The position numbers and the translations under genes are program-made. A stretch of DNA of 40,118 bases from positions 1 through 40,118 of IMG/VR virus record IMGVR_UViG_3300025168_000207. One strand, written 5' to 3'. The notes under the pieces were generated by a model. The model ran no database searches. It was not told where the DNA came from and was given only the letters and a program-made list of their open reading frames with translations. Source of the DNA: a virus. The first letter of the stretch is position 1. Each line of letters starts with the position of its first letter. Below are positions 322 through 29,636 of this stretch, in pieces.

Positions 322-405
322 CAAGCACTCATAGATATGCAACAAAAAAAGGATAAGGATGCCCCTGCAAAAAACCCTACATACAAAGGAGTAACACATG
401 AGTAG
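312..405 (+). pseudogene. Possible remnant or frameshifted microgene between chaperone and tail fibre
   Basis: An ATG at 312 opens MKRASTHRYATKKG and stops at 356. A run of seven A (344-350) lies just before the stop. If one A is skipped, the frame continues for 17 more codons to a stop at 403-405, giving a 30-residue basic peptide that overlaps the start of the tail fibre gene. The same 15-base start region opens a complete gene at 3752. The stretch may therefore be a decayed copy, a microgene with a homopolymer error, or a chance frame. No clear ribosome site precedes it. Confidence 0.2.
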
Positions 406-8490: not shown

Positions 8491-8819
8491 ATGATTTAGA
8501 ACACGTAGACATACAGATAACTACAGCAGAAAAATTGATTTTACTGAGAGATAATTTTTATAAATTATCTGAAAATAAACATTTTAAAGAAATAATTATG
8601 AATGATTATTTCAAAGAAGAAGCGGCTAGGTTAGTTATGGCTAAAAGTAATACTAGCTTAGATGACTCACAACAACGTTCCATCGATAATATGATTGCTG
8701 GAATAGGTAGTTTATCTAATTATTTTGATATGATCATTCGTCGAGGTAATGAAATGGAAGTTAGTATGAAAGATTTTGAACAAACCAGAGAAGAAATTCT
8801 CGCAGAGGAGGTTAATTAA
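8487..8819 (+). CDS. Small protein between portal and scaffold
   Basis: A 110-residue, mostly helical, acidic protein with no membrane segment. It overlaps the portal gene by four bases (ATGA) and ends three bases before the scaffold start. In N4 and many podoviruses one small gene of unknown role lies in this slot. Possible roles are a head assembly helper or a minor virion protein; the sequence gives no motif to decide. The end of the gene holds the strong ribosome site of the next gene (GAGGAGG, 8804-8810). Confidence 0.7.
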   Translation: MNDLEHVDIQITTAEKLILLRDNFYKLSENKHFKEIIMNDYFKEEAARLVMAKSNTSLDDSQQRSIDNMIAGIGSLSNYFDMIIRRGNEMEVSMKDFEQTREEILAEEVN

Positions 8820-8821
8820 TT

Positions 8822-9964
8822 ATGGAGAATGTATTAGGTCTTTCGGATGATGAGTTCTTAAAGCAGAATCAAGAAGAACTCTCGGCAACAGAAGATTCTC
8901 AAGAATCAACTGACACAGTTACGCCTGAAGGAGACATTACTGATGAGACTATTAGTGATGAAAGTAATAATGCTACTGGCGACAACCAAGAGATTGTTGA
9001 AGAAGACACTTCAAAAGAAGAACTGGACACTTTGCCTGAGGATACTCAAGCAGATGCTCAACCTTTCGTTGAAGATACTAATTCAGAATCTATTGATGCA
9101 GATAGTAATAAAGAGGATACAGACACACCTGAGGATACACCTCAAGAGACTGATACTTTTAATTATGAGAATGCATACAACCAGGTAACAGCTCCATTTA
9201 AAGCTAATGGTGCAACTATGCAGGTCAAATCACCTGAAGATATAGTTAGGTTAATGCAGATGGGCGCAGGTGCTCAGAAGCAAATGGCTAAACTGAAACC
9301 TAATCTTAAGTTAATTAAGATGTTGGAAAATAATAATCTTCTAGATGAACGTAGATTGAATAATTTAATTGATCTATCTAAAAATGACAGCAAAGCTATT
9401 GCTAAATTAGTTAAGGATAGTGGAGTAGACCCTGATGAAATTGATATAGAGAATGCCAGTACTTATCAACCTAATAATTATACTGTAACAGATAGTGAGT
9501 ATGAGCTAGATCAAGTACTAGATAGCATAAAGCACACAGATACTTTTGATAAAACCATTGACTTATTAACGTCAGAATGGGATGACAAGAGTAAAACGTT
9601 TGTATCAGAAAACCCTAATGTAATTAAGGTGATTAATGATCATATGCTAAACGGTGTCTATGATAAAGTGAATGCTATTATGCAACAAGATAAGGCTTTA
9701 GGTAAGTTATCTGGAGTATCTGATGTTGATGCATATAAACAAATTATAGATATGTTAGCTAGCAATGGGGAGCTTATTGATGGGAATCAGCAAGCACCTG
9801 TGCAATCTAATGTAACGGATATAGGAGATGTTGATTCGGTTAAGCGTAAGCAAAATCGTAAAGCAGCAGCTCCTACTAAACAAACAAATGCTAGCAATAA
9901 TTCTAAACAGGATGTTAGTTATTTAACATTGTCTGATGATGAATTTATGGCTAAGTATGCTTAA
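8822..9964 (+). CDS. Capsid scaffolding protein (probable)
   Basis: A 380-residue protein encoded between portal and major capsid protein, the classic place for a scaffold. The first 120 residues are extremely acidic (Asp/Glu/Ser/Thr repeats with P-E-D-T). The middle (120-200) is Lys/Leu-rich with Y-N-Q-V-T-A-P-F-K-A-N-G, as in other podovirus scaffolds. The rest is charged and helical, with a basic patch V-K-R-K-Q-N-R-K near 340. The protein begins and ends with nearly the same peptide: L-S-D-D-E-F-L (7-13) and L-S-D-D-E-F-M (373-378 region). Scaffolds bind the capsid protein through terminal helices and leave before or during packaging. The ribosome site is GAGGAGG (8804-8810). Confidence 0.75.
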   Translation: MENVLGLSDDEFLKQNQEELSATEDSQESTDTVTPEGDITDETISDESNNATGDNQEIVEEDTSKEELDTLPEDTQADAQPFVEDTNSESIDADSNKEDTDTPEDTPQETDTFNYENAYNQVTAPFKANGATMQVKSPEDIVRLMQMGAGAQKQMAKLKPNLKLIKMLENNNLLDERRLNNLIDLSKNDSKAIAKLVKDSGVDPDEIDIENASTYQPNNYTVTDSEYELDQVLDSIKHTDTFDKTIDLLTSEWDDKSKTFVSENPNVIKVINDHMLNGVYDKVNAIMQQDKALGKLSGVSDVDAYKQIIDMLASNGELIDGNQQAPVQSNVTDIGDVDSVKRKQNRKAAAPTKQTNASNNSKQDVSYLTLSDDEFMAKYA

Positions 9965-12539: not shown

Positions 12540-14849
12540 ATGGCAGGGGTAGTAGGAGTAGTAAACGATGTAGTTACGACCGTTGCCAGTCAAGCTGAAG
12601 CATTTGCAACCGCAGTAGTTGCTACAGGCGCACAAATATTAAATGATTTTATTAATGTTTTAGCTGGGCCAGCAGGACACGATAAAGTAATTAGTGAATT
12701 CTCTACGCAGAATAGTTATTTATTTACCGATGATAAGTACATAGATAATTTATATAATACTGATGAAATAGCTTTAAACAGTTTAATTAAAGGAACATCT
12801 TTTACTAATGAAATAGTTGATTTTTATAGAAAAGCAAGTTCATCAACTGATTATGTAAGCGATATAGAAGTTTATGATGCTTTTAATCTTTATGGTAGTG
12901 GTACTTTTCAAGAGAATAATTATTACAGTATTTATAACCCTGATATAAGATCTAATTATAGTATTCATAGTGGGCCCGACGCACTGGATGACATTCTTCC
13001 TTCAGTTACACTTAGAGTAAACAATCTTAATTTGTTTGAAGGGTCAGTTTCTGCTGAGTATGCAGGTACTAATGGGCGGCAGTCAAGCTTTAAATGGCAT
13101 GTTGTGCTAGAAGACGACGATGGGCAGCAAGGAGCAGAAGGATATTATCGTTACGCACCTACATTGACTTCCACTACTTTTGTTTCAGTACAACAAAATA
13201 CTAAAAACTATATAAAAGCTTTAGGTTTACCAGATCCTGAAAATTTATTAGATGATTTACCTTATAGTCAGCATAGTAATGTAATAGATTCTGCATTTCT
13301 TAATTTTAGAGTTAAATGGGTAAGTGGATCGGACAGTACAACAGGTAATAGAATAAGTAATAAGTATTTATGGTTATTAGCTAAGGAGTTATATAATGTA
13401 AGTTCCATGCCGCATACATTAACTTATACTACTGATGCTGATGGAGTCGACACAGTATCTTTATTTCAATATCAAGTGAATGGAGATGGGCATAATTATA
13501 CTATGGGGGTTTCTCATGTTTCAACATCTACAGGGAATAGCACAGTTACTAGCTCAAACCCGTATCAATACGATAAAGATTTAACTTCTAATGATGGATA
13601 TTATTATTATGACGCCAATAAAACTTTGCCTGTAGGAGATAGTCAAGCTCAAACTGTATCGCAAGTACAATCATACTTAAATGATAGTAGTATAGGCACT
13701 ACAGAAGTACAAGCTAATTGGTTGGAAATAGAAGAAAATAGTGTATCAGTTACTGTTGATGGAGTAGCTTCTGTATTTCCAGATGAAATTTATCTAGTTG
13801 GATCTGGTATTACCTTAAAAATACACAAACCCTCAAATAATACATATGTAACTGCTGACGATCAAGTATTACGAGTAGGTAATTTATATATAAAGAAAAG
13901 TAGTACAGAAATAATATTTGCTACTGTACCTGCTAGCGTATACTCTAACGCTAGTGTCACATATGGTAGATCTAATGCTACTAGTGTTACTTATTATGCA
14001 GTGCATAATGTATCTTCTATAGAAAGGATAACTGATTATGCTAATGATTACGCCGACGCCAATTTTAGGTATATAACTCACAAATTAGATGCTTCTAATA
14101 ATTGTGTATCTGCTCCGGTAATATGGAATATATATCAAAGATTAGATCCGTTTGAACAGCATAAATTGGTCATGGCTAGTGCTAATATATCATTGCACTT
14201 AGCTTATTATGAGCGTATAGAAAAAACATGGGAGGAAAAACTTAGAGCTGCTACATTAGAAGTTATTAGAATAGGAGCAATTGTATTTGCTGTTTATTCA
14301 CTGGGAACAGCAAGTTCACTAGTTGTATTAGCTGAAACTGCAATTGTTGCATATGCCACATCTTTAGCAGTAAATGCTTTTATAGAACACATACTTGTAC
14401 CCGTAATAATAAGTAATTTTGGGGAAGATGAAGGTTTGATACTGTTAGCTGTAGCGGCTGTAGCCATTGCATACTATAGTAGTAAAAGTAGTACAGCAGG
14501 ATTAAATCAGTTTCCTAATCAAGTTACATTATTTACAGCGTCTATAGACGTAATGAATCAATTGTATTCGTTGGCAGTAGTTCAACCAGGACTAATTGAA
14601 ATGCAAAGGGAACAAGAGGAATTAATAGCAGCAGATAAAGAACTAACTGAAGAAGAAGAAGCATTACAAGCGGAAATGGACGCATTATTTGGTACAGATA
14701 CTTCTCCTAATGCATTACTGAATTTACAAATTAGAGCTGCATTAAACCCAATGCCTGCATCAGCTTATTTTGGTTACCACGACGGTATATTAGAAAGGCA
14801 GTTTGACTGTTATGACTATGATAAGTATAATACACTTAATGTTAGTTAA
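12540..14849 (+). CDS. Large virion protein with hydrophobic segment (probable tail or internal protein)
   Basis: A 769-residue protein. Residues 1-45 are Ala/Val-rich. The bulk (60-560) is Asn/Tyr/Ser-rich and beta-like. Residues about 570-645 hold two or three strongly hydrophobic helices (I-G-A-I-V-F-A-V-Y-S-L, then L-V-V-L-A-E-T-A-I-V-A-Y-A, then L-I-L-L-A-V-A-A-V-A-I-A-Y-Y). A Glu-rich coil follows near 690-720. Hydrophobic helices inside a virion protein suggest that it could insert into the host membrane during DNA entry, as internal or ejection proteins of podoviruses do. No domain was recognised by eye. It lies between the small structural gene and the internal-protein genes and is surely part of the same operon. 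Confidence 0.6.
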   Translation: MAGVVGVVNDVVTTVASQAEAFATAVVATGAQILNDFINVLAGPAGHDKVISEFSTQNSYLFTDDKYIDNLYNTDEIALNSLIKGTSFTNEIVDFYRKASSSTDYVSDIEVYDAFNLYGSGTFQENNYYSIYNPDIRSNYSIHSGPDALDDILPSVTLRVNNLNLFEGSVSAEYAGTNGRQSSFKWHVVLEDDDGQQGAEGYYRYAPTLTSTTFVSVQQNTKNYIKALGLPDPENLLDDLPYSQHSNVIDSAFLNFRVKWVSGSDSTTGNRISNKYLWLLAKELYNVSSMPHTLTYTTDADGVDTVSLFQYQVNGDGHNYTMGVSHVSTSTGNSTVTSSNPYQYDKDLTSNDGYYYYDANKTLPVGDSQAQTVSQVQSYLNDSSIGTTEVQANWLEIEENSVSVTVDGVASVFPDEIYLVGSGITLKIHKPSNNTYVTADDQVLRVGNLYIKKSSTEIIFATVPASVYSNASVTYGRSNATSVTYYAVHNVSSIERITDYANDYADANFRYITHKLDASNNCVSAPVIWNIYQRLDPFEQHKLVMASANISLHLAYYERIEKTWEEKLRAATLEVIRIGAIVFAVYSLGTASSLVVLAETAIVAYATSLAVNAFIEHILVPVIISNFGEDEGLILLAVAAVAIAYYSSKSSTAGLNQFPNQVTLFTASIDVMNQLYSLAVVQPGLIEMQREQEELIAADKELTEEEEALQAEMDALFGTDTSPNALLNLQIRAALNPMPASAYFGYHDGILERQFDCYDYDKYNTLNVS

Positions 14850-14887: not shown

Positions 14888-16156
14888 ATGGCAAAGAAAA
14901 GGCAATTTAAAGGTGCTAAATATAAAGATGGAATATTAAGTTACAATTACCTTGGTGGAAAAGGAGGAAAAGGAAGAGGAAATGTATCTATAAAACAGCA
15001 GGGTGACGATTGGTATTTTGTAGGTAAGGATGGAGAAATTAGAACTGATGTGGGTGATGGAGGTAAATTAACTCCAACTCATATGAAGAATTTAAAGAAT
15101 GATGGTATATTTGATGCTGTCCCTAAAGCTGAGGTACCCGATGGCCCTAAAGGGGATGTTGATCCAAATCCAGGTGATGCAAAACCTCCTGTTGAACTAG
15201 CAGAAAGTAATTACGAACTACCCGGTGAAATGTCAGCACCTGTGTCAAAAGCGCAGAAAGCATTTACACCTGGTGATTCTGCTGCAGGAAGTTCTAACCC
15301 AATAACTGCGTCTACAGAAAATGCTCCTACATTCCAATCAGAATCGTATACTGGTCCTGGTACATCAGTCTGGTCACCCAGTGCAGGAGAATTAAGTGTT
15401 AGAGGTAGTTCTACTCAAGGGAATATGCCAATGAATTATTCTAGTGGTGGTGATTGGTCACCCGGTGCATCATCTACGTCAGATGGAGGATTTACCAGTT
15501 CAAACATTGCAATTCCTCAGTCTTCTGGTGGCTCTAGCGAGTACGTAGATAAATTTGGACCAGGGACTCCAAAACAGTCTTCTTATGGTGGAAGTGAGTG
15601 GCAAGATAAAAATCCAAGAGGGTATGGTTCATTTAACTCAGATGGGCCCGGATATCGTTACACTAAAGAAGGGGCCGAAATTCCTTTGCGCCCGCCGTCC
15701 ACTTTCGGACCCCCGTCTTCTAGTCCCATAAGTACATCACCTGACACTGCGTTCTCGCCTGCTAATGAATATACAGGTGTTTCTGCGGATAACACTCCGA
15801 ATATGCCCAGTGATTATACAACAGGCTGGTCACCAGGTGTAGAATCTGCAGGCATGCCCTCTGAACCAGGTATTAAAAATCAAGCGAGTCCAGGAATGAC
15901 TTCTGCTGAGGGATGGAATGCAGCAGGGTCAGTAATGAAAGGTGTAGGGGGCTTAGCTTCAGCCTATACAGGTATAAAGAACTACCAGTTAGCTAGAGAT
16001 GCGCATAATGCCCAGAAGAACCAATGGCAGGCGAATTATAATCAACAATTAAAAGCGTATGAGGATAATAAAGTGATGGCAAATAATGAAATAGCTGCTA
16101 GGAATAGGGTTCTTGAGTCACGAGGGCAAAAGAAAAGTTATAACACTATTAAATAA
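14888..16156 (+). CDS. Internal virion (ejection) protein, Gly/Ser/Pro-rich
   Basis: A 422-residue protein. Residues 1-60 are basic and Gly-rich. Residues 75-340 form a low-complexity Pro/Ser/Gly/Thr region with a recurring W-S-P-(S/G) motif (three copies, near residues 161, 193 and 315). Residues 345-365 are a small hydrophobic patch (V-M-K-G-V-G-G-L-A-S-A-Y-T-G-I). The C-terminal 55 residues (Y-Q-L-A-R-D-A-H-N-A-Q-K-N-Q-W, then Y-N-Q-Q-L-K-A-Y-E-D-N) match the helical tail shared by many podovirus internal head proteins of the T7 and P22 gp7 sort. Inference: packed in the head and ejected with the DNA. It is the first of four internal-type proteins in a row. Confidence 0.65.
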   Translation: MAKKRQFKGAKYKDGILSYNYLGGKGGKGRGNVSIKQQGDDWYFVGKDGEIRTDVGDGGKLTPTHMKNLKNDGIFDAVPKAEVPDGPKGDVDPNPGDAKPPVELAESNYELPGEMSAPVSKAQKAFTPGDSAAGSSNPITASTENAPTFQSESYTGPGTSVWSPSAGELSVRGSSTQGNMPMNYSSGGDWSPGASSTSDGGFTSSNIAIPQSSGGSSEYVDKFGPGTPKQSSYGGSEWQDKNPRGYGSFNSDGPGYRYTKEGAEIPLRPPSTFGPPSSSPISTSPDTAFSPANEYTGVSADNTPNMPSDYTTGWSPGVESAGMPSEPGIKNQASPGMTSAEGWNAAGSVMKGVGGLASAYTGIKNYQLARDAHNAQKNQWQANYNQQLKAYEDNKVMANNEIAARNRVLESRGQKKSYNTIK

Positions 16157-16182: not shown

Positions 16183-18495
16183 ATGGCACTCACATGGCAA
16201 AACGTATCTCCTAGTAATCCTGCAGGTATATTACAAGCAGGTAACATGGCAGGAGCTAATATAGCAAAAGGGCTTGATGTTTTAGGTAGTAGTATGCAGG
16301 AAGGTGCTAAAGATTATACAGATGCAGAAACTGGTAAGCTGCTACTTATGCTTGATAGTGCTAAGGATAGGAATGAAAGACAAACTATCCTTGATGATGC
16401 TGATAAGTCTTATATTAATCAAGATATTATAGCTAAAGATAATCAACAGTTTGAAGCTAGAGAACAGCAGAAAGAAGAAGCATTATTTAGTCGAACTATG
16501 CAAGAGCAAGATGCTACAAGAGATATAGATCATAAAGCTTTTGTACGAAAGCAAACGCTAGGTGATCAAGAACGAGATATTGCTCGTGACGCAACTACTG
16601 CAGATTATCGAGCAGAAACTCTTAAGAATCAACGTAGCGAACAAGAACTAGCCAAGTTAAATCGTATTGAAGACCTTAGGTTACAATCTACAAAGACTGC
16701 AGCTGAAACAGTAAGAAACAGAAGAGCAGAAGCTCGGGAAATTTCTCAGTATGGTATGTTAGAAAAAGAACATAATATAAAATTAGAAAAAGCAAAAAAA
16801 GATCAAGAAAAAATTAAACAAGGTGAGATTTTAACTGGAAAAGCTGGTCCTAGGATAAGAGAAACAAATGATATAAACGGGTTAGTTAATTTACGAAAAG
16901 ATTACAGAGATGCACGACTTAAACAAATACCTGGAGCCCAAGGTATTATGGACGCAATTAATGTTAAAATAGCTAAAGTAATAGATCTTCCTAGTATATA
17001 TGGAGGTGATATTACTATGGCTATTGAGGGGAAAACTCAAGCAGAAAAAGTTAGAAGTCATAGTAGTAATCTTCAAAAAACTGTAGGTAGATTAAAAACA
17101 ATTTTACCTGCTAGTACTTCTGTAGAATTACAGACTATGGCTGAGGATATTCTCAGAAAATCATCTCCTGTATACGCAGATGAAATGAGTAAATTAAAAA
17201 TAACTTCAAAAGAATTTAATGATAATTATTTATTAAATTTTAGAAGTGATCTACGTACATATACATACGATGACGATGGTTTAACAAGTGCTGATATAAC
17301 TAATCTTCGTAATAGATTCATCACCGGTAAGGGGACACAAATTACTCCTGAAAATGCAGAAGCTATAGAAACTATTACTGGTATTTTAGATTCAAGATAT
17401 AAACACAATTTTAATAAAACACCTCTGAGAACATTATTAAGTAGTGTAGATCCAAATATGTTAAAAGCTAATATGGAAATAGCTAGCGTTGCTGGTGAAG
17501 TAGATGGGGCAATAAATAAAGAGCGTGTTAAAGATAAACATAATGCAAATGTACAAAATTTAATAAACGCATTACGTCCTATAGGTGATTATGCAGATAA
17601 ATTAACTAATGACGAAATGAAGAAAAAAGTAACTGAAGAATTATTAAGAGATCCTGCTTATGCTAATATAGTTAATAAAGCAGGGATTTCTTATATTGAT
17701 GATATGAAGAGGGATAAAAGTCAGGCTGTAATAAGATTTAACACTAAAATAGGAAAAGCTAAAACTGCAAAAGATTTTTCTGGTATCATAGATTTTGCAA
17801 TAACTAATGGTATATTAGATGAAACAAATGCATCTTTGTTTACAACCAAAATAAGTGAGGAAGCACTAAAAGATGAAGAAATTATTAATACACAAATTAC
17901 TATAGATCCAGCTACATTTACTTATGATGGATGGGAAGCATGGGAACGACAAGCAAGATTTGAAATTAAGGAAAAATGGGAGCGTATACCTGAAAGTACA
18001 GTAGATAAAATGGTAGCTAGTGTTGTAGATAACCCCACTAATAAACCCCTTAAAGTTGCAATAAAAAGTTATCAAGATCTGCAAGCATATAAAGCCAACT
18101 TGCAAGCTGAGATGAATAAATTAACTACTGCCCAAAAACTAACTGATGCTAAATTTAATGAAGAGTTTGCAAAAGCCCCTATACGAACTTTAACTAATCA
18201 TGTTTTGAGTGCACCAAACAGAAAATTAGTATTGGATTCACTTTTAGCTGCAGACGATCCTGCAGATTTACAGGATACTATATCTAATGCATGGGAATTA
18301 ACAAATCATGTGTATAAAGCTTTAAAAAAAGCAAATCCAAAAGATACTCCGAAACAACTAGGTAGAAAGTCAAAAAGAGCCCTTGATGCTATTGTTCCTG
18401 AGAATCAATGGCTTGGAGAAGAATTTACTGTGGATAACTTCCCTAGTAAAGAAGATATTATACGTGCAAGTAAAGAAAATAGTTTATTTAGATAA
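16183..18495 (+). CDS. Internal virion protein, long helical
   Basis: A 770-residue, very charged, almost entirely helical protein. The N terminus, M-A-L-T-W-Q-N-V-x-P followed by a stretch ending G-A-N-I-A-K-G-L-D-V-L, matches the start of many podovirus internal virion proteins. Next comes a long coiled-coil-like segment (90-215) rich in Glu, Arg, Lys and Gln, then alternating helical repeats to the C terminus. There is no enzymatic motif. Family knowledge: such proteins assemble with one or two giant partners into the channel that carries DNA across the periplasm. The partners here are the 1194- and 2508-residue proteins encoded next. Confidence 0.7.
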   Translation: MALTWQNVSPSNPAGILQAGNMAGANIAKGLDVLGSSMQEGAKDYTDAETGKLLLMLDSAKDRNERQTILDDADKSYINQDIIAKDNQQFEAREQQKEEALFSRTMQEQDATRDIDHKAFVRKQTLGDQERDIARDATTADYRAETLKNQRSEQELAKLNRIEDLRLQSTKTAAETVRNRRAEAREISQYGMLEKEHNIKLEKAKKDQEKIKQGEILTGKAGPRIRETNDINGLVNLRKDYRDARLKQIPGAQGIMDAINVKIAKVIDLPSIYGGDITMAIEGKTQAEKVRSHSSNLQKTVGRLKTILPASTSVELQTMAEDILRKSSPVYADEMSKLKITSKEFNDNYLLNFRSDLRTYTYDDDGLTSADITNLRNRFITGKGTQITPENAEAIETITGILDSRYKHNFNKTPLRTLLSSVDPNMLKANMEIASVAGEVDGAINKERVKDKHNANVQNLINALRPIGDYADKLTNDEMKKKVTEELLRDPAYANIVNKAGISYIDDMKRDKSQAVIRFNTKIGKAKTAKDFSGIIDFAITNGILDETNASLFTTKISEEALKDEEIINTQITIDPATFTYDGWEAWERQARFEIKEKWERIPESTVDKMVASVVDNPTNKPLKVAIKSYQDLQAYKANLQAEMNKLTTAQKLTDAKFNEEFAKAPIRTLTNHVLSAPNRKLVLDSLLAADDPADLQDTISNAWELTNHVYKALKKANPKDTPKQLGRKSKRALDAIVPENQWLGEEFTVDNFPSKEDIIRASKENSLFR

Positions 18496-18525: not shown

Positions 18526-21500
18526 ATGTCTACTCATACACAGTTTGTTAATGTACTGCAAAATAAAAAACAATCTGTATTTACTACTAAACAAAATGTT
18601 TTAAATAGAGTAACTGCTGCAAAACAACGCATACTCTCCCCTGTTACTGTTATCTCCACATATGATGATGTTGAGGCTGTGTCTTATGACGACAAGCTAA
18701 CATCTCCTGAAATGTACGACAGTGTTTACACTGAAGGTACACAACCATATCAACAGCCCCCAATAGAATCTGAAGAAGGAAATATTCGTAAGCATACAGA
18801 TGGTTCATTTTCTGTAATTGAGTCTGATGGATATGTTCATAATTTTGGTTTTGATGAGCAAATAGCTCGTTCTTATGGGGCTCACACTATTGCAAAAGAT
18901 AAAGCTATAGAAGAAGATGCACCTAAACCGGGTTCTGCTGGGGATGTAGCTAATAGATTGCTACAAGCTACTGTAGGTATAGGAGGAATGGCGTATAAAG
19001 GCGTAGTAGGAACAGGGCAGACTCTTCGTCACCAAATAGATGATTATAATAGTAGAGGTGCTCTTAGACCTGTAGTAATTGAACCTGGTAGAGAGTATGT
19101 AGGACAAAGAAATCCTAAAATAACAGAGGAAGATGAAAGTAGGTTTAATAACATAGAACAACTTCCTTCTGAAATACAACAATTATACAGAAAATCACTT
19201 AAATTTAAAATACTTACTGAGCTTAAAAATAGAGCAGAAGGAACAAAAGAAGATCTAGCTGTTGCAGAAGAAGATATAGCTGATATAAATAAAGCAATAC
19301 CTGTTGATAGATCAGTAGAGGCGGCTAGATCGGCAAATTTTAAATATGTAGCCGAAACAGAAGGATTATGGGAAGCCACAAAATATACTTTAAAGGAAGA
19401 TTGGGATAGTTATTTATATGGAGGTATTGATGCTATTCCGTACATGGCTGTATTAGCTACAGGAAATGTACCAGCAATTACTACATTAGTAACCTCAATG
19501 GCTATAGGGAATAATGTAGAAAATACTAAAGAATTTTTAAGATTAAATGATGGAGTAGAACCTACTAAAGATGAAGCAGCTAGGATACAACTATTTTCAG
19601 CAGCACAAGCAGCAGTAGATGCAATTGGAGATAGATTAGCTGTAGCAGGATTACCTAAAGCAGCAATAGCTGCTTTGTCTAAACAGCTTATTTCAGCAAA
19701 GAAAATACTTTCTTCCACAGCAAAATCAGTTCCCTCAGTACTTAATAATTTTGTTGTTAAAACTATAGCTAAAGTTGCTATTACTCCAGCAAAGATGGTA
19801 GTTACTGAAGCTCCTGCTGGAGCTGCAGAGGACTTTTCAAGACAAATTGCTACTGAAGGAAAAATTAGCGATCCTGCCTCTATAGTTGAAGCTGCCATAA
19901 TAGAAGGATTTGCTGCTCCTGTAGCAGCACCAGCAGTTAGAGTAGGTGCAGCAGTAGGAAAAGCTGTCACACAAAAAACTAAAGATAAAGAAATTGACAC
20001 AGAAGAAACACCAGGAACACCAGGAACAATAGAATCAACAGGAACACCAGAAATAATAGAACCTCCTCTGCCTATCGATAAAGCAGAGTTTGATACTTTA
20101 ATTGGTTCTGTGGTGTATGCAGAAGGAGAAGATCAAACAAAGAACATTAAAACACTACATGAACTTAGAAAAAGAGAACTTACTTCTACACAAGAAGAGA
20201 TTCATGCAAAAAAAGTTACAGAATTAGAAAATAAAATTAATAATAAAACAGCTAATACTAATCCTGTAGATGATGAAGGTAAAGCTTCTTTAGAAAATGT
20301 AGTAAATTTAACTGAAGAAGAATTTAAAAAAGTAGAAGAAGAATTAACAGGATCTGAAGATTCTAAAGAAGAAGATAAAGCATATTTCAAGAGTATTTCC
20401 AAGTTAATAGCTGCGAAAAAAAGAGCTGAAGCTAGTATAAGCACTGTATCTGAAGATATTCGTGATGGAGTTGAGGAAAGACATAAAGGAGCTAGTACTC
20501 TTTTTTCAGAGGTTAAAACTTTAGTTAATTCATTGGTAGCTCCAAATGCTGATCCTGACCGAATAAATAGAGAAATACTAACTAAAATAAATGAGTTACA
20601 AACACATTCAGGTAACTTAGAGAAAAAAGAAGAAGCATTTAGAAAAGCAGAGAACTATGTTGTAGATGAAAGTAAAGAGATACCAGAATCTGCAGAGTTA
20701 GATACAATTGAAGCAATTGTTGATAAAAATGGAGTTAAGCCTAGAGTTGGAACAGGAAATACAGGATCTGCAATAGTTATAGGTACCACTAAAAATAGAT
20801 CAACTACTTATACAGTATATTACAATCAATCTAGGGATGAAATAAAAGATGCAAACACTGAGTATGAAGGTTATGTTACAGAAATAACACGTCTTAAGAC
20901 AGGGAAATCTAGTATAAATAACCTGGTAAATGCAGTTGCTGAGGATAATAAATATGTGGATGCTGTAGCGACTGCTGCTACTGCTTATTTAAAGTCTACT
21001 ATACATGCAGATACTAAAAATAGAGTAGTAGCACTAAAGAGTGAGCAAGCAACAATAGCTGCATTAGCAGAACAAGAGTATAATAGAAAAACAACTGAAG
21101 TTACTGAAGAAGAACTAGAAACTATTGATGTAGAAACAGAGCCAACTAGAACAGGAACAATAAATGTATTTTGGGGAAAACCTGAATCTACCGAATCTAC
21201 TAAAATACTATCTAACCTGGCTCCAAGAACATTCACATACGAAGGAAGGGAATATGGCAGTGTAGAACATGCTTATCAATCTAATAAGTCAGGAACTTTT
21301 GATCAAGATACTTATACTGAGTATGTTAAAAAGGGTAGATCTGGAAGAAAGATAAAAGGTAAAGGTACCATTGAGGAACTGGAAGCAGCAGATAGTTTAG
21401 GATTAATGAAAAAACTTGTAGTTGAAAGTTTTATACAAAATCCTAATTCAGATGCAGCTGCTAAATTGATGCAATATGCAGAATTTACTCACGATAACGA

Positions 21501-22110
21501 TGGATTAATTGATCAAGCCTTTCTGGATGGGTTGTATCTAGCTCAAGAAAGTTTAGAAAAAAGTGCTCAGGATGCTGCTGACGCAAATGTAACTGATACA
21601 GATAGTCAAACTACTCTTACTGAAGAAACTTCTCCTGAAGGGACTCCTGTAACTTCACAGGAAGAAACTACTGAAGTACCTAGTGAAGCACTTACAGATG
21701 AAGAAATTGAAGCAAGAATAAATGCTGATACTTTAGAATTACAAAGAAGAAATGAAGCTAGAGCAGCAGAGCAAGAAGCTGCACCGCCTGTTACTGAAGA
21801 AAGCACTACTGAAGAAGAAGCCACTGTTGCTACAGAAACTATAAGTGATGTTGATGATACTACTACTACTGAAACAACTGCTGAAACTTCTACAGAAGAA
21901 GCTAGTGAAGCTGAAGTTACAACACAACAAAGTAGTGAAGTTAGTTTTAAATTAGATAATAACCTTAGTTTACAAGAATCTGAACTAGATGTGCACACAT
22001 TAAGTGTATTATTCCCAGCTGCTATAAATGCAGATGGTACTTTAAAAACAGGAGATACTGCTGATGCAGCTGTTAATAAACTAGGTAAATTTTTAGAGGT
22101 GTGTAAATAA
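18526..22110 (+). CDS. Giant internal virion protein with NADAR-like domain
   Basis: A 1194-residue protein. Residues 140-490 look like internal core proteins of podoviruses, with Gly/Ala-rich hydrophobic stretches (about 300-330 and 454-480) and a T-E-A-P-A-G-A-A-E-D-F-S-R-Q segment. Residues 490-870 are charged and helical. Residues 879-1005 match the NADAR (YbiA) fold: I-N-V-F-W-G, L-S-N-L-A-P-R-T-F-T-Y-E-G, then the signature Y-G-S-V-E-H-A-Y-Q (E914, H915), then M-K-K-L-V-V-E-S-F and E-F-T-H-D-N-D. A Thr/Glu-rich acidic linker (1019-1142) leads to the end. NADAR enzymes are N-glycosidases, some of which remove ADP-ribose from guanine. The stop overlaps the next start (TAATG). Ejection with the DNA is inferred from position. 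Confidence 0.75.
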   Translation: MSTHTQFVNVLQNKKQSVFTTKQNVLNRVTAAKQRILSPVTVISTYDDVEAVSYDDKLTSPEMYDSVYTEGTQPYQQPPIESEEGNIRKHTDGSFSVIESDGYVHNFGFDEQIARSYGAHTIAKDKAIEEDAPKPGSAGDVANRLLQATVGIGGMAYKGVVGTGQTLRHQIDDYNSRGALRPVVIEPGREYVGQRNPKITEEDESRFNNIEQLPSEIQQLYRKSLKFKILTELKNRAEGTKEDLAVAEEDIADINKAIPVDRSVEAARSANFKYVAETEGLWEATKYTLKEDWDSYLYGGIDAIPYMAVLATGNVPAITTLVTSMAIGNNVENTKEFLRLNDGVEPTKDEAARIQLFSAAQAAVDAIGDRLAVAGLPKAAIAALSKQLISAKKILSSTAKSVPSVLNNFVVKTIAKVAITPAKMVVTEAPAGAAEDFSRQIATEGKISDPASIVEAAIIEGFAAPVAAPAVRVGAAVGKAVTQKTKDKEIDTEETPGTPGTIESTGTPEIIEPPLPIDKAEFDTLIGSVVYAEGEDQTKNIKTLHELRKRELTSTQEEIHAKKVTELENKINNKTANTNPVDDEGKASLENVVNLTEEEFKKVEEELTGSEDSKEEDKAYFKSISKLIAAKKRAEASISTVSEDIRDGVEERHKGASTLFSEVKTLVNSLVAPNADPDRINREILTKINELQTHSGNLEKKEEAFRKAENYVVDESKEIPESAELDTIEAIVDKNGVKPRVGTGNTGSAIVIGTTKNRSTTYTVYYNQSRDEIKDANTEYEGYVTEITRLKTGKSSINNLVNAVAEDNKYVDAVATAATAYLKSTIHADTKNRVVALKSEQATIAALAEQEYNRKTTEVTEEELETIDVETEPTRTGTINVFWGKPESTESTKILSNLAPRTFTYEGREYGSVEHAYQSNKSGTFDQDTYTEYVKKGRSGRKIKGKGTIEELEAADSLGLMKKLVVESFIQNPNSDAAAKLMQYAEFTHDNDGLIDQAFLDGLYLAQESLEKSAQDAADANVTDTDSQTTLTEETSPEGTPVTSQEETTEVPSEALTDEEIEARINADTLELQRRNEARAAEQEAAPPVTEESTTEEEATVATETISDVDDTTTTETTAETSTEEASEAEVTTQQSSEVSFKLDNNLSLQESELDVHTLSVLFPAAINADGTLKTGDTADAAVNKLGKFLEVCK

Positions 22111-25100
22111 TGACTCCTTGTGGTATTAGTGTAACTAAAAAATTAGGTAATTTGCCTCCGGTTATAGATTTTATAGCACGAAGCAAAACCTTAAGGGATA
22201 CTGCTTCTGCTGACCCTAAGGGTGCAATTAATAAATTTATGGAGTTAGTAGGTAAAGTTATTTCTGATGTACTTAAAACTAAGCCTATTGCTGGTATACA
22301 GTCTATTCCTGCAGTTTTGTTTAAAAAAGAAAATAGTAAATATCTTAAAAGGTATTTAGAGAGTATAAATATTGCTCCTAATGTAGCTGGTGTTATGATT
22401 AATGAGTGGGCATCTTACAGGGCTTCAGCTGAAAATATTAGTAAATCTCGGGGCAATACAGTATATCCTATAAAGAATCCTTTAGCGCTTATTATAGATA
22501 AGGAAGGTAATTTACCTCCTAATGTAGCATTTGCTAGTATGATCGCTATTGCAGATTGGATACACAAACATCCAACTAATACAGTGTTTATTAATAGTCG
22601 GTCTAAAGAGCAATTTATGCTTTCTAGAGGACAAGGAGCTAGGCTTACTAACAATGAACTAGAACAAATGGACCAAATAGGACATGATTTTAATGATGCA
22701 AGCACCCAGATAGGTAATATTGTGCTAAAACTTTTAGGTGTGTCAGGAGTAAATAAAGATTTAGGTACTGTTCAATATATAGAGAATATTGTTCCTGCAT
22801 TAGGCATGTATGCTTTAATGACTGAACACTTTAAATCTACTAATAAAAAAATAACAGTAGATACTCACAAATGGGTATTTACTAATGACTCTCCAGGTAG
22901 AAAATTTGTAAACGGTGGATTGTATAACCACATTAAATTGATTCTAAAAAAAGATAATACAAATAGTCAGCGCATATCTAGAGCAATACCTGGTATTGCT
23001 AAAGGAGAAGATGTATCTTCTGCTGCTGATATACTACAGAACCCTGCTACTGCTATTCCTCAAGGAGTACGTAATTTTTTCGGGAAAATATCCGGGAAAA
23101 TAAAAAATACTATAAAAAAGAAACAACAGCAAGAATGGACTACCTCTAGCGCTATAGCTCCCTTAACTGTAATTAAAAATTTAGGAAATGAGGGTATTAA
23201 ACTATTACATGAATTAGCAGGTGTTATTAGTGAAGAAAATTTAGGTTACGAAAAAGGTGGTGTGTTTTATCCGTATAATGAAGCACATTACGTTAGAACT
23301 ACAGCTTCCAATGACGACAAAAAGAACGCATTTAACGAGTTGTTTACAGCTCATGAAGCTGAAGATACCCCGTTAGCTAAATTTTATTTTAAGTATGTAT
23401 TAGCTATAACGAATAGAGCCTTACAAGTAGGAACTAAGATATTCCCTCAAAATAGTCATATACACAGAGCGTTTATACAACCTGTAGGATCTACTAAGTA
23501 CAATAGTTCAAATATGCATTTGTTCAAATTAGCTGTTTTGTACAATGTAGGATTCTCTATAGATAAAGCTACTCCTGAAAAAGTGTTAGAAGAATTTGAT
23601 AAAGTACAAGGAGACGCTAATCTACTAGCTGCTATAAATGAATTAAATAAAGGAAATAATGTTAATGGAAAGGTTCTTATAGAAGAAATTAGAAAGTTTT
23701 ATGAGACACATACTGGAGGTAAACCTGGGGACAATATAAAAATATTAGCTGCTATACAAGCTATGAGTGCATACAAAGCAGCAGGAAACGGAATAGAAAG
23801 TAAAGATAAATATAAAGAGTTTACTTCTGATGTTACTTTAGAAATAGATGGAATTACTAATGGGTTTGCAATGACCTTACTGCAGTTCCCTATGCGTTCT
23901 TTAGGTGCAACGCTAGAAAGAAGACTTAATCAAATTGGTGTTTATCTGGATAAATTTTCACGACATAGGGTGGATGGTACTTACGCAGAAGATAACTCTA
24001 ATAAAGAAGATACGTACAATGACTTTGCTACGTTAGTTAATGAGTTTTCTTCAGCAGAAACAGCTAGTGAGTATATACTTGCAAACAAGAAACGGTTTAA
24101 AAAACTGATAGAAAAATATAGTGAAAATAAGTTTGATGAAGGATACGGATTTGAAAAAAACTTTAAGGAAGATTTCAATAAAAGAAATACTGCTCTCTAT
24201 AGCATATTTCCATTTGCAGATGGAGAAGGCAATTTACTTAGGGAAGTAGTTAAATATCCTTTTATGATTTTTAATTATAGTGGGAGCATTAAGGCTATAA
24301 CTACAGGGGTTGCTTCAAATGTTGTAGATAAAGTACACGAAACTTTGAATACTTTAAGTAAGGATCTTGAAGGAGAAATACCTAAAGACTCTGCAAAAGA
24401 ATTAATTTCTTTTCTAAACACAGCAGAAGAAGCAGGAATTATATTTGGAGTTAAACCTGATTTACCTAAATTAAAAAGTAGATTAGATAAAATAGTAAAT
24501 ACTACTGGTGATCCAGAATCAAGTGAAATAAATGGGGCACTTAACTTTTTAAACCAATTAGAAGTAAATGAAGAAATTTCATTAGAAAGCATTAGTGAAA
24601 TATTAATTCCTAGATTTGATTTAGCCCTAACAGAAATGCTGGGCCCAATTAAAAATAGTACAACTCAGGCTAATCAAATAGCTGAATTAATGTTTTCTAT
24701 ATTTAAAGTTAAATTAGATGCCGCAGTAAAAGCCAAATTAGAAGAATTGAATAAAAAACATGGTACAAAAATAGAGACTCTTCCTGATAAAGAAGTTGCG
24801 CTGATAGCTAAAGAATTAGAGCGATATGTTCCTAGGTATTCGGGAGCATTAGTTAATAGCCCAGTAAGTGCGGATGCGGATAGTATTAGTGAAATATTTA
24901 CAGATTTAATGACTGCTGATTTAGATAAGGATAGTACAAGTAAATCATCTGTAACATATGAATACAATCTTCCTCCGGGAGTTACAGGAGAAGCAAAAAG
25001 CAAAAATATTACTCCTTATACTAAAGTTTATAGTAATCCTGGGGCATCAGCAGTTATTAGGGCCATTATAAATATGGAAGCCTCTGTAATGTCAGAAACA

Positions 25101-28100
25101 GAAGGACTGCATACAGATGTACTAACTACTTTTGATGGAGTACTAGGGCAGCCTGAGACATTAGAGAAATTCTCAAAAGAGTATGGTAAGAACTTTCTTA
25201 AATTAAATAGAGACATATCTATTATGCAAGATATGCTTGATACTCTTAATGCTAACATAGCAGAATTAGAAAAAACTAAAGAATGGGAATCAATTGAAGC
25301 TGCTGCAGATGATTGGATGAAAGAAAATGCGTTTGCACGTGTAGAAAACTATGAACGTATATCTTTTTCTGGTGCTTTAGCTGCAGTAACTTCTAAAAAT
25401 GATGAAGTACAGGCTGATAGGGACGCTTTATTTGAAAGAATGGATAAAGAAACAGTAGTAGCGCATCAGATGTTCTTTATGGATATGTATCCAAAGTTTA
25501 CTTCAAAGAAGTTAACTGCTGAGGAAACCCTGGAAGATGATAAACGAACATACTTTTTTGAAAATAGTGAATATGTAAAAAATATAAATCAAGAAGCAAG
25601 AGATATAGCTAGAGCCAGTAAGGAAGGTAAGTATGAAGATAGGTTAGATATAGCAAAAGATGCAGCTAAAAAAGTAAAACAAAGATTATCTGCAACAATA
25701 GAAGAATCAGGAGGGGTCGAGAAAGCCATACAGCTACTGTCAGTACTAAATGAAAAAAGTATATCACATCTACTTAGGCTTACTAGAGAAACTGCTGAAT
25801 ATGCAGCGTTAGAAGCATTTTTAGATAAACGTGAATCTACAACATCCACTAATAAATTAATTAAAGCAATTCTTGTAGGAGGATATGGTATAGCAGAAAT
25901 TGATGCTATCCAGGGAAAAGATAGAGCTGAACTAGATAGGTTAAAATTTGCTCTGCAAAATAAATTTGAAATGTATCATACATTGGGTGATGACGCAGAG
26001 ATGCGTATAAATTTTGAGCATAAAGATGAAGCACATACTGTTGGAATACAGGAATTAAAAAATGAATTTATTACTCCAGAAGAGTTAGGAGCAAGAGAAG
26101 AAGCTGTTAGAGAGCCGGATGCTACTGACAAAGAAACTGCAATATTAGAAGGTAAATCATTTTATAATACTGAAACAGATCCTGATAGTGTAGGTACTTT
26201 AGGACCAGAACTAGATAGGATTAATCCTGTAGAAACACATTCATCTACAGTTACAAGTAATACTATAAATAAGTTATTCCATAAGTTCCAGGAAATATCT
26301 GCTCCTTACTATACATCAAAAAAATCAAAAGTTGCACATACTAATGCATTAGAGAAAGTATTATCAGCTGTGTCTGCAGGGCTGGATTCAGTAAGTAATA
26401 TAAATTTAAATGTTGAAAAAGTTGATGGGATTACTCAGGGTAAGTATTTACCTGCATTAAATAGAGTAAGAGTATCTTTAAGTAGAAAACCTCCTTTAGC
26501 TATAAATGGAAGTACTCCTCAAGAAGTGTACGTACACGAAATGTTACATGCACTTCTAAAAGGAACCATTAAAGAAAATCCTTTATTAGTTACACAGCTG
26601 CGTAAATTATTCCAGCAAACTAAACAAGAATTTGATTCTAATGGTAAGCATCAAGTGTTCTTGGAAGGAATAGATAATCCAACTGAACATGATATAGCTA
26701 TGGCTAAGCAGCAATATAGCTATGTATTTAGTAATACAAAGAAAGAAGATCATGGAGAATTAGAAGAGTTTCTAGTATATGCTGTAACTAATAGAGCTAT
26801 GATTAGTTATTTAAGTAACACGCAGATAGCGCTACCAGTAAGGAATGGTAAACTGTTGGGTAAACTGCAGCATATGGTTGACGTGCTTATAGATCTTGCA
26901 TTAAAACTTCTTTCTAGGAAATTTAGTAGAGGAAGTAATGCTTATGCAGATGCATTAGCTACAATGGAGTATTTGATAGAAGCTCAGAATAAAAATGAAC
27001 GGCTAGCAAATAGCTTTTCTCAAAAACTAAATGATAAATTAACAAAAGGAGATAGACGAATAAGTGAATGGATTTCAAAGAAAGCTGAAGATATGTTAAA
27101 TGCTGATAGCGACTCTAAATTAGCTAAAGTTAGAGATTCTGCTATTGGTGCTGCTGGGTTGATTATGAGTGACAATGCTAAAGCACAAGCAGTCAAACAG
27201 AAACTAGGCAGTATACTAGGTAAAACTGCCAGATCTATCTATAACAACTATGGTAGTGGTGTGTTATCACCAGCACTAGTTATGTTGCTACTTCAGTCTA
27301 AAAATCTTGTAGATAAAACTACAATGACAACTAATAGAATGTCTGTAGAGTGGTTTAATGAAAAATTATGGGTGTCTACAAAAGGTAAAGATATTAGCCA
27401 TTACACAAAAGAAGCACTTACTAACGTATTACTACGCACAGGGTTGTCCGGATTAACAAAAATCCAGATGGAACCTATAGATATATTTAACTTATTAGGA
27501 AGTCCACAAAATATAAAAAAACAAAAAGATAAAATATTAAAGCATCTAAAAATAACTGGAAATCATATAGCAATTAAATATGCTGAGGAATTGGGGATAC
27601 ATGCATCTACAGGAGATTCAGATGCTAACTTACCACAACTACATGATAATGGATATACTATAGCAGTGGAGCATCTGAAGAATGTAGTAGTAGAAGACGC
27701 TACAAAATATTTAGAAGCTTACGCTACGCTAGTCGCTTTAGATCACACTAATAAACGAGAAGTAGCTGCTGTTAAAGAATTATCTACTGCTGAATTTTTT
27801 GCGAATCCAAAAGTCAATGGAATGACTGATATACTTTTATACCATGCATCATACAATGAAAAAGTATTGAAAGATCTGTTTAAAGGAAATCCTACCCAAA
27901 TGAGATTTGGTTATATTATAGAGAAGGTAGATAATTTACACGGAATGGTGATAGGAAAAGAAAGTGAAGCAGAAGCTAGGAGGAAAGAAGGGTATACCGA
28001 GATGTACCCATTAGGTGATTTAAATGGTATAAGTGAAAGTGATAATGTGTTATTTGTGGGACATAATATACCAGAAAATCCTTATGTTTCAGGGATATTT

Positions 28101-29636
28101 TCTATGGCAGGTATACGGCACATGGGTACTTCGCTAAGGGAAATACTTAAAAATCATCCTGATTATATTAGAAAGAATGGAGGTATAAATTATCCTAAAA
28201 TTGCCAGGACAATACATAGAGTAAAAAAAGCTGATGCAGCAAAGAGTGGATCTTCTGTTTCTTATAAAAAAACTAATCTCCGTCCATTAAAAAATGATCA
28301 AAGGGGTATTGTAGATTTTAGAGTCATGATGAATCATGCTACGAAAAAGAAGTTATTACGTCCTGACCTGGAATTTCAAAATGTATTTGCTAATATGCAA
28401 TCTACTCTAGTAGGTAGGGTGAATACGATTACTGTAGATAAAGCAGTAGTTGATTCATTAGTTTGGGAGCAAGATAATATAATGCCTAATAATCCTAATC
28501 TACCATTTATAAATATACTAGATGAAGATTCTCCATTTCATGAGCAGTACTTACGGCTTCCCAGGGAAATACGGGAGTACATGGAGAAGTATGTTATTAA
28601 TGTAGAAGGCAAACCATCATTTATGATTAATGCGGATCAGATAGATCAGGTATTTGGATATTCTGCTCCAACTATAACTAATTTAAAATGGGTTAAAAGA
28701 AGTCCTACTGTATTAAAACATGCTAGATTGGCTGAGTATATGACTAGACAAATTGTGTCTTATGCAAAGGATAGGATAGTTATAGCTACCCCTGCAGTTG
28801 TAGCTAGAAATATACTATCTAATACAGTTAACCTAACTATTCGTAAAATACCTTTTCCTTACACAGCTAAAAAGTATATAGAAGGTTACACAGAGTATCG
28901 TAGGTATACTAAAGATCTTACTGAAGCAAATTTTTTAAAAGTCAAGATAGACGCAAATAAATTACCACCGACTAGCACCGAAGCTAAACAGTATGTTAGA
29001 TTAGTTAAAGCAGTTGTGGCTAATAAAATGCATACATACAGTAAGCTTGGATTAAATTCAATTATTGTTGAGGATGTGAATACTGCAGCTACAGATGGGT
29101 ATTTAAATAGACTCCAAAAACAACTAAAAGATACTGGTGTAGGTAAACTTATAGGAAAAATGCCTACATCTGTACAAGAAACTAGTAAAACATTAATACT
29201 AGCAAAATCAAGTGCAGTGTACAAAGGATTACAGCATGTAGTGCAGCTGTCAGATTTTCTAGCTAGGTATGTAATGATTGAATACGCTGTTAATGTAAAA
29301 AAGCAACCACAAAATATTGCTGTAATGGAAGCTATAGAAGCATTCGTATTATTTGATGAAAACTTAACTCCTGCATTACATGCATTAGATTCTACTGGAA
29401 TAACAATATTTGCTGCGTATGCTATGCGTAATGTGAGAGCAGCTAAGGCCCTAATTAAATACTCTCCACAACTTGCTACATTAAGTATTGCTGGTGAATC
29501 AATCTTAGGAATAGACGGTATGGCAGCTAATATATTAACTAATCCAATTCCTAGTTTGTTTAATCAAGCAAATATTTTTGATAAAGCTACAGAGCTTACA
29601 GGTCTTGAAATACTTTCTAATACGTTGTCTAATTAA
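22110..29636 (+). CDS. N4-like virion RNA polymerase fused to a metalloprotease-like domain
   Basis: A 2508-residue protein with single-subunit RNA polymerase motifs. Motif A: E-I-D-G-I-T-N-G-F with D580. Motif B: R711-x3-K715-x3-M719-x3-Y723, the same spacing as T7 R627, K631, M635, Y639. Motif C: T-T-F-D-G-V-L with D1009. A candidate for the upstream T/DxxGR arginine is R453 (S-H-I-H-R). The A-to-C distance (429) is near that of N4 virion polymerase (392) and larger than that of T7 (275). Residues 1476-1480 form H-E-M-L-H with E1552/E1553 downstream, a zincin-type site. The end (about 2200-2490) matches the tail of giant podovirus internal proteins, with D-F-L-A-R-Y and R-A-A-K-A-L-I-K-Y. 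The position after portal, capsid and internal genes equals that of N4 gp50 (about 3500 residues). It would be packaged and would transcribe early genes after entry. Ribosome site AGAGGTG at 22095-22101. Confidence 0.8.
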   Translation: MTPCGISVTKKLGNLPPVIDFIARSKTLRDTASADPKGAINKFMELVGKVISDVLKTKPIAGIQSIPAVLFKKENSKYLKRYLESINIAPNVAGVMINEWASYRASAENISKSRGNTVYPIKNPLALIIDKEGNLPPNVAFASMIAIADWIHKHPTNTVFINSRSKEQFMLSRGQGARLTNNELEQMDQIGHDFNDASTQIGNIVLKLLGVSGVNKDLGTVQYIENIVPALGMYALMTEHFKSTNKKITVDTHKWVFTNDSPGRKFVNGGLYNHIKLILKKDNTNSQRISRAIPGIAKGEDVSSAADILQNPATAIPQGVRNFFGKISGKIKNTIKKKQQQEWTTSSAIAPLTVIKNLGNEGIKLLHELAGVISEENLGYEKGGVFYPYNEAHYVRTTASNDDKKNAFNELFTAHEAEDTPLAKFYFKYVLAITNRALQVGTKIFPQNSHIHRAFIQPVGSTKYNSSNMHLFKLAVLYNVGFSIDKATPEKVLEEFDKVQGDANLLAAINELNKGNNVNGKVLIEEIRKFYETHTGGKPGDNIKILAAIQAMSAYKAAGNGIESKDKYKEFTSDVTLEIDGITNGFAMTLLQFPMRSLGATLERRLNQIGVYLDKFSRHRVDGTYAEDNSNKEDTYNDFATLVNEFSSAETASEYILANKKRFKKLIEKYSENKFDEGYGFEKNFKEDFNKRNTALYSIFPFADGEGNLLREVVKYPFMIFNYSGSIKAITTGVASNVVDKVHETLNTLSKDLEGEIPKDSAKELISFLNTAEEAGIIFGVKPDLPKLKSRLDKIVNTTGDPESSEINGALNFLNQLEVNEEISLESISEILIPRFDLALTEMLGPIKNSTTQANQIAELMFSIFKVKLDAAVKAKLEELNKKHGTKIETLPDKEVALIAKELERYVPRYSGALVNSPVSADADSISEIFTDLMTADLDKDSTSKSSVTYEYNLPPGVTGEAKSKNITPYTKVYSNPGASAVIRAIINMEASVMSETEGLHTDVLTTFDGVLGQPETLEKFSKEYGKNFLKLNRDISIMQDMLDTLNANIAELEKTKEWESIEAAADDWMKENAFARVENYERISFSGALAAVTSKNDEVQADRDALFERMDKETVVAHQMFFMDMYPKFTSKKLTAEETLEDDKRTYFFENSEYVKNINQEARDIARASKEGKYEDRLDIAKDAAKKVKQRLSATIEESGGVEKAIQLLSVLNEKSISHLLRLTRETAEYAALEAFLDKRESTTSTNKLIKAILVGGYGIAEIDAIQGKDRAELDRLKFALQNKFEMYHTLGDDAEMRINFEHKDEAHTVGIQELKNEFITPEELGAREEAVREPDATDKETAILEGKSFYNTETDPDSVGTLGPELDRINPVETHSSTVTSNTINKLFHKFQEISAPYYTSKKSKVAHTNALEKVLSAVSAGLDSVSNINLNVEKVDGITQGKYLPALNRVRVSLSRKPPLAINGSTPQEVYVHEMLHALLKGTIKENPLLVTQLRKLFQQTKQEFDSNGKHQVFLEGIDNPTEHDIAMAKQQYSYVFSNTKKEDHGELEEFLVYAVTNRAMISYLSNTQIALPVRNGKLLGKLQHMVDVLIDLALKLLSRKFSRGSNAYADALATMEYLIEAQNKNERLANSFSQKLNDKLTKGDRRISEWISKKAEDMLNADSDSKLAKVRDSAIGAAGLIMSDNAKAQAVKQKLGSILGKTARSIYNNYGSGVLSPALVMLLLQSKNLVDKTTMTTNRMSVEWFNEKLWVSTKGKDISHYTKEALTNVLLRTGLSGLTKIQMEPIDIFNLLGSPQNIKKQKDKILKHLKITGNHIAIKYAEELGIHASTGDSDANLPQLHDNGYTIAVEHLKNVVVEDATKYLEAYATLVALDHTNKREVAAVKELSTAEFFANPKVNGMTDILLYHASYNEKVLKDLFKGNPTQMRFGYIIEKVDNLHGMVIGKESEAEARRKEGYTEMYPLGDLNGISESDNVLFVGHNIPENPYVSGIFSMAGIRHMGTSLREILKNHPDYIRKNGGINYPKIARTIHRVKKADAAKSGSSVSYKKTNLRPLKNDQRGIVDFRVMMNHATKKKLLRPDLEFQNVFANMQSTLVGRVNTITVDKAVVDSLVWEQDNIMPNNPNLPFINILDEDSPFHEQYLRLPREIREYMEKYVINVEGKPSFMINADQIDQVFGYSAPTITNLKWVKRSPTVLKHARLAEYMTRQIVSYAKDRIVIATPAVVARNILSNTVNLTIRKIPFPYTAKKYIEGYTEYRRYTKDLTEANFLKVKIDANKLPPTSTEAKQYVRLVKAVVANKMHTYSKLGLNSIIVEDVNTAATDGYLNRLQKQLKDTGVGKLIGKMPTSVQETSKTLILAKSSAVYKGLQHVVQLSDFLARYVMIEYAVNVKKQPQNIAVMEAIEAFVLFDENLTPALHALDSTGITIFAAYAMRNVRAAKALIKYSPQLATLSIAGESILGIDGMAANILTNPIPSLFNQANIFDKATELTGLEILSNTLSN

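Follow-up and report, generated by a model that had tools for sequence, protein, structure and literature searches.

The window analysed here, the whole 40,118-nucleotide stretch of IMG/VR virus record IMGVR_UViG_3300025168_000207 (positions 1 to 40,118), comes from a marine phage and encodes, as judged from its sequence, an N4-type virion RNA polymerase (vRNAP) as two polypeptides, an N-terminal subunit and a catalytic subunit. The sole cysteine of the upstream chain is residue 1193 of 1194, and that of the downstream chain is residue 4 of 2508; we consider it likely that a disulfide between Cys1193 and Cys4 rejoins the two into one continuous chain. Phage N4 packages a giant RNA polymerase in its head and ejects it with the DNA; for the product of 22110–29636, packaging in the virion and ejection with the DNA are suggested by homology and by position in the operon. 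The features of the two genes are as follows.

18526–22110, + strand: N-terminal subunit of the split vRNAP, 1194 residues (profile match, collinearity with relative G002, and Cys count)
22096–22112, + strand: junction GAGGTGTGTAAATAATG, with GAGG and overlapping TAA/ATG (sequence and three-frame translation)
22102–22104, + strand: TGT codon of Cys1193, the penultimate residue of the upstream chain (sequence)
22119–22121, + strand: TGT codon of Cys4 of the downstream chain (sequence)
22110–29636, + strand: catalytic subunit of the split vRNAP (polymerase and C-terminal domain), 2508 residues (PHROG 2206, fold, and Cys count)
22242–25484, + strand: polymerase domain, residues ~45–1125, with R436, E578, D580, R711, K715, Y723, and D1009 (AlphaFold and N4 residue map)
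26262–29633, + strand: C-terminal domain, residues ~1385–2508 (stretch matched by PHROG 2206)
26535–26549, + strand: HExxH motif, residues 1476–1480 (conserved motif)

A virion RNA polymerase encoded in two genes

The open reading frame (ORF) at 22110–29636 starts with ATG and contains no internal stop codon. Its product is an N4-type vRNAP, as an earlier note on this DNA had proposed, by profile, residue map, and fold. In the profile search, PHROG 2206 ('virion RNA polymerase') matched with an E-value of 8.7e-162; the solved N4 vRNAP chain was retrieved from sequence alone with the 2508-residue protein, and tblastn with the polymerase gave matches in 427 phage records. An AlphaFold model of residues 1–1130, computed with 29 relatives (predicted local distance difference test, 80; predicted template modelling score, 0.81), showed the right-hand fold and superposed on N4 mini-vRNAP (PDB ID: 2po4) with a Z-score of 24.6 and a root-mean-square deviation of 4.5 over 897 aligned residues. 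Foldseek with the same model gave the N4 vRNAP entry 9pnq (E-value, 9.2e-22). N4 vRNAP entries ranked first by both Z-score and E-value, followed by T7 and mitochondrial polymerases; the fold was not nearer to T7 than to N4, the T7 entries covering about half the aligned length.

The motif residues quoted earlier (EID580G, R711-x3-K715-x3-M719-x3-Y723, and FD1009G) are all present, and the R-x3-K-x3-M-x3-Y pattern occurs only once in the protein. By alignment, the residues named as catalytic fall on active-site counterparts of N4 mini-vRNAP: E578 on E557, D580 on D559, R711 on R666, K715 on K670, Y723 on Y678, and D1009 on D951. None of D580, R711, K715, D1009, R436, and R453 varies across an alignment of 12 members, N4 among them. 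The exact T7 spacing in motif B is real but not special to this enzyme; it is a family feature, because N4 itself has it (R666/K670/Y678). The proposed alteration of the DxxGR motif to SHIHR was a misassignment: SHIHR453 is present, but R453 aligns with N4 R440, and the motif arginine is R436 (N4 R424). The catalytic residues of the T/DxxGR, A, B, and C motifs of N4 (R424, D559, K670, Y678, and D951) thus all have counterparts, namely R436, D580, K715, Y723, and D1009.

Residues 1–42 of the catalytic subunit are predicted to be disordered, the polymerase domain begins near residue 45, and the C-terminal domain runs to the end of the protein. The PHROG 2206 match covers residues 1388–2480, which include a conserved HExxH motif (HEMLH at residue 1476). 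In the N4 vRNAP, a lipid-binding N-terminal domain (~1–1000) precedes the polymerase, which is followed by a C-terminal domain comprising subdomain C1, which contains HExxH, and the helical subdomain C2 (PMC12633501); the HExxH subdomain is related to zincins (PMC5512222). The long C-terminal part, which had been taken for an extra one, is accordingly the ordinary N4 C-terminal domain.

It had also been noted that the protein is about 1000 residues shorter than the N4 enzyme and that its core lies near the N-terminus. This is true of the ORF but not of the enzyme, because the N-terminal domain is encoded by a separate upstream gene at 18526–22110. A profile built from the N-terminal domains of 36 fused relatives, with the query sequence left out, matched the product of this gene with an E-value of 4.7e-95. 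Both parts are collinear in a single 4255-residue frame in relative G002 and lie likewise within single long frames in G005, G006, G009, and G010; in most relatives they form one chain of 3000–5000 residues. The ORF of 2508 residues starting with the polymerase domain would by itself fit an enzyme that has simply lost its N-terminal domain, as the earlier note implied, but we reject this reading and give it next to no chance: the domain of ~1000 residues is present as a separate protein, encoded by the next gene upstream in the place held in fused relatives. By homology, the N-terminal subunit would be the membrane/ejectosome domain. Instead of the one giant polypeptide of ~3500 residues of N4-type vRNAPs (PMC7650795), the window has 1194 and 2508 residues in two genes.

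The two genes adjoin, and at the junction the stop TAA of the upstream gene and the start ATG of the polymerase gene share one base (TAATG), with a Shine–Dalgarno-like GAGG ten bases 5' of the ATG. The first frame ends with two stops in a row, and the second, downstream frame has a stop just upstream of the junction in the three-frame translation. The sequence GTGTGTAAATAATG is found also at the junction of L186/G003.

Cysteine at the broken ends of split polymerases

Absence of cysteine from vRNAPs is known for N4, roseophages, and Pseudomonas and Achromobacter phages and has been linked to passage through the tail or the periplasm (PMC2784036, PMC3715699, PMC3915230), disulfides having been raised as a hindrance (PMC3715699, PMC3915230). 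N4 and 14 other reference vRNAPs contain no cysteine (15/15). The analysis extends this absence to environmental fused vRNAPs, in which 91 of 100 non-redundant proteins (371,160 residues) lack cysteine against a background of 0.86% in neighbouring genes, and links the breaks to terminal cysteines. The query differs from the N4-type pattern in having one cysteine per chain, on the facing ends only.

Split systems were gathered by scans with alignments of vRNAP and of its C-terminal domain, and a scan with the major capsid protein gave access to the wider family; scans with the query proteins alone found only a 100% identical contig, and one scan of genome contigs gave four loci and added no split system. 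Many further split systems were obtained, of three kinds: N-terminal domain separated from the rest, N-terminal domain plus polymerase separated from the C-terminal domain, and three pieces. The 23 junctions with both sides available comprise 73,781 residues with exactly 46 cysteines, one on each facing end and none elsewhere, including the outer N-termini (0/16) and outer C-termini (0/21). These cysteines are located at residues 3 to 10 of the downstream piece and 0 to 4 residues before the end of the upstream piece. In three-piece chains, the middle piece carries a cysteine at each end (residues 3 and 407 of 408 in L218, and 3 and 774 of 776 in L310). For L315, L312, and L313, the complete partner was retrieved once the rule had been formed, and its only cysteine lay 3, 4, or 10 residues from its end; the one in L313, 10 residues before the end, lies beyond the range of the 23 junctions. 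The pieces are separated by other genes, some of which have an ordinary cysteine content, in L208 (6708–8511), L216 (5431–6810), L314 (3453–5577), L249, and L254.

Breaks in vRNAP genes have been viewed before as artefacts or recoding. An earlier survey came across two reference genomes with split vRNAPs, suspected errors in gene calling or else read-through, and concatenated the pieces, and it dropped proteins below 2500 residues (PMC10654107); the GenBank entries of Alteromonas phages AD45-P1 to P4 carry the note 'potential frameshift' over the N4 gp50-like gene. Some breaks are indeed of this kind: those of L374 and L183, without terminal cysteine, interrupt a chain that is intact in a close relative, and Shigella phage pSb-1 has three ORFs without cysteine and fused relatives, so that its breaks may be sequence errors. 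For the query, a sequencing or gene-calling artefact, or a break bypassed by read-through or frameshifting to give one long chain, is very unlikely, considering the stop/start overlap with a ribosome-binding site and the two consecutive stops closing the first frame. Nor would artefacts put cysteines at the ends, and other genes stand between the pieces in five loci. AD45-P1 and P3, the two that were read, share the same two clean ORFs, 7 bases apart, encoding 2495 residues with the sole cysteine at 2493 and 1409 residues with the sole cysteine at 4. Frameshifting and read-through were rejected for the query on its junction sequence and accepted for L183, L374, and pSb-1. A literature search that did not cover subscription journals found no work linking vRNAP breaks to cysteine.

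The fused or split state requires 10 changes, which may be gains or losses, on a tree of 142 C-terminal domains built with FastTree, a fast method. The split between polymerase and C-terminal domain forms one clade, the split between the N-terminal domain and the rest appears in several places, and the query is placed among fused relatives. With background rates of 13% for a cysteine in the first 11 residues and 10.5% in the last 6, the chance of eight independent origins with both ends marked is near 1e-15. We also considered the terminal cysteines as a by-product of the ribosome-binding site or of the TGTAAATAATG overlap, and rejected this because neither the downstream cysteines nor the widely spaced junctions have the TGTAAATAATG or ribosome-binding sequence.

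Proposed disulfide linkage and its alternatives

In the proposed mechanism, an interchain disulfide between Cys1193, near the C-terminus of the upstream chain, and Cys4, near the N-terminus of the downstream chain, would give a continuous and otherwise cysteine-free chain. The bond would form after exit from the reducing cytoplasm, which could be in the virion once released or, during ejection, in the periplasm, and the domains would traverse the tail strung together on the restored chain. The host cytoplasm would then reduce the disulfide and free the polymerase from the membrane-bound N-terminal part, with early transcription otherwise following the course known from N4. The tips appear as flexible segments or short helices in the models, which we count in support of the disulfide. 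Cys4 should be accessible because it belongs to the segment predicted to be disordered, and in a low-confidence model of the upstream protein (predicted local distance difference test, 61; predicted template modelling score, 0.41), Cys1193 sits on a helix at the chain end, preceded by a disordered linker. Also counted in support is the lack of cysteine in the gp51- and gp52-place proteins, as in N4 gp51 and gp52.

The two chains might instead be noncovalently held subunits, with the terminal cysteines binding a metal or the thiol of another virion protein such as a gp53-like plug. Cysteine pairs are able to bind metal, and the protein in the gp53-like plug position has Cys757 of 769 near its C-terminus; N4 gp53, however, has four cysteines while N4 vRNAP has none. 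Moreover, only ends that face another piece carry a cysteine, which means both ends of a middle piece and no outer end; this pattern fits a chain of the form A–B–C and not a third partner. We regard the noncovalent alternative as unlikely. Joining by a peptide or thioester-type ligation via cysteine (trans-splicing or native chemical ligation) would suit an upstream cysteine that is last or next to last and a downstream one near the N-terminus. Ligation requires a fixed site, whereas the downstream cysteine stands at residue 3 to 10 and never first, and the upstream distance varies. No intein sequence was found, and an intein or fixed ligation site was rejected, leaving ligation only a very slight chance. 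The variable positions suit a disulfide better.

Several observations weigh against the disulfide and the cysteine rule behind it. Nine of the 100 fused vRNAPs contain cysteine, three of these nine probably owing to a mis-called start. The rule is broken by the fused vRNAPs L279 (from 233; 20 cysteines), L280 (from 1; 25 cysteines), and L205 (from 2261; 5 cysteines), and L279 together with L280 forms the sister group of the clade split between polymerase and C-terminal domain. The breaks in L202, L215, L344, and L352 lack a terminal cysteine and were assigned to neither class, and the share of such splits is less certain because split systems were chosen partly by an N-terminal cysteine. We infer the disulfide itself, all of its support coming from sequence; the two free ends could instead bind metal or other partners, and the virion interior may not be oxidising.

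With these points included, we lean towards a more general view, in which giant ejected phage proteins are kept cysteine-free and each evolutionary cut provides both new ends with one cysteine; a disulfide would then restore a threadable chain outside the reducing cytoplasm and release it in the new host, as a convergent, redox-switched, and genetically segmented polypeptide. N4 phages pose the open question of how a protein of ~380 kDa is packed, passes a channel of ~35 Å, and refolds (PMC12633501). Genomes with a split vRNAP are a natural experiment on which domain borders tolerate cutting, and the paired cysteines speak for an obligatory passage of the pieces as a single chain. The known absence of cysteine from vRNAPs would thereby become a rule with a meaning, plus one exception that is testable in the cultured AD45 phages. 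The results also indicate that the fragmented vRNAPs that were concatenated as presumed calling errors, or may have been lost by the 2500-residue filter (PMC10654107), are partly real.

Class of the enzyme, neighbouring genes, and hairpins

N4 gp50 (Schitoviridae; PDB IDs: 2po4, 9pnq, 9pnr, and 11fw) is alike in polymerase fold, catalytic residues, HExxH-containing C-terminal domain, gene order, and near-absence of cysteine, but is one chain of 3500 residues with no cysteine. Since the one-giant-chain and no-cysteine features are lacking, we call the query a split variant, probably disulfide-joined, of the N4 vRNAP, homologous in sequence and fold, and not a canonical member. The AD45 phages likewise have the vRNAP in two genes with one cysteine per facing end (P1 and P3), but their break lies between polymerase and C-terminal domain, and that of the query between N-terminal domain and polymerase. 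The single-subunit-type N4 RNA polymerase II (RNAPII; gp15/gp16 heterodimer) is likewise the product of two genes (PMC4496689); unlike the query, it is a non-virion enzyme split inside the polymerase. For disulfides in phage particles, the report on Agrobacterium phage Milano suggests a precedent in neck and capsid (PMC10491603); there they belong to the shell and neck, whereas the disulfide proposed here would join pieces of an ejected enzyme.

The window and the contig extending it have PHROG matches for the Schitoviridae hallmarks portal, major capsid protein, DNA polymerase, large terminase, primase, and a second RNA polymerase. Schitoviridae have three RNA polymerase genes, one of them for the ~3500-residue vRNAP (PMC7650795); here the vRNAP occupies two genes, and the RNAPII-type match is one 548-residue ORF, other subunits not having been sought and both contigs being incomplete. 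As had been stated earlier, the polymerase gene lies at the end of the structural operon: the order is portal, tape measure, major capsid protein, gp55, gp54, the gp53, gp52, and gp51 places, and then vRNAP, as in N4. The gene at 12540–14849 takes the gp53 (tail plug) place; its product contains two cysteines, one of them close to the C-terminus at 757 of 769, and gave no significant family match. The two genes before the vRNAP are as follows.

14888–16156, + strand: gp52 (ejection protein) place, 422 residues, no cysteine (phrog_2646, function unknown, E-value 1.8e-8, and position)
16183–18495, + strand: gp51 (ejection protein) place, 770 residues, no cysteine (position only)

N4-type vRNAPs start at hairpin promoters with a 3-nucleotide loop, and N4 early promoters have a central purine in the loop. 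The longer identical contig (L019) has two hairpins with a 6-bp stem and 3-nucleotide loop, at 7252–7266 and 7630–7644, upstream of the RNAPII-like gene (7824–9470, 548 residues); in their template-strand loops, AGA and CAG, the central base is a purine. Four such hairpins occur in 20 kb against 1.0 in shuffles, which is only suggestive of promoters.

Some N-terminal subunits contain additional enzyme-like stretches. That of the query has a NADAR-like one:

21169–21498, + strand: NADAR-like stretch, residues 882–991 of the N-terminal subunit (phrog_1017, E-value 1.6e-7; Pfam NADAR, E-value 0.009, below the cut-off)

NADAR enzymes act on ADP-ribosylated substrates, and an ejected counter-defence activity is therefore conceivable for this stretch. 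Residues ~1070–1203 of the split-off N-terminal subunit at 3673–8775 of L178 form a RecD/Pif1-like helicase ATPase (AAA_30; E-value, 3.6e-21). At the other end of the window, an 872-residue ORF at 398–3016 (best PHROG E-value 0.043, no family match) probably encodes a divergent tail protein, and is followed directly by a tail-fibre-assembly-like gene at 3018–3563.
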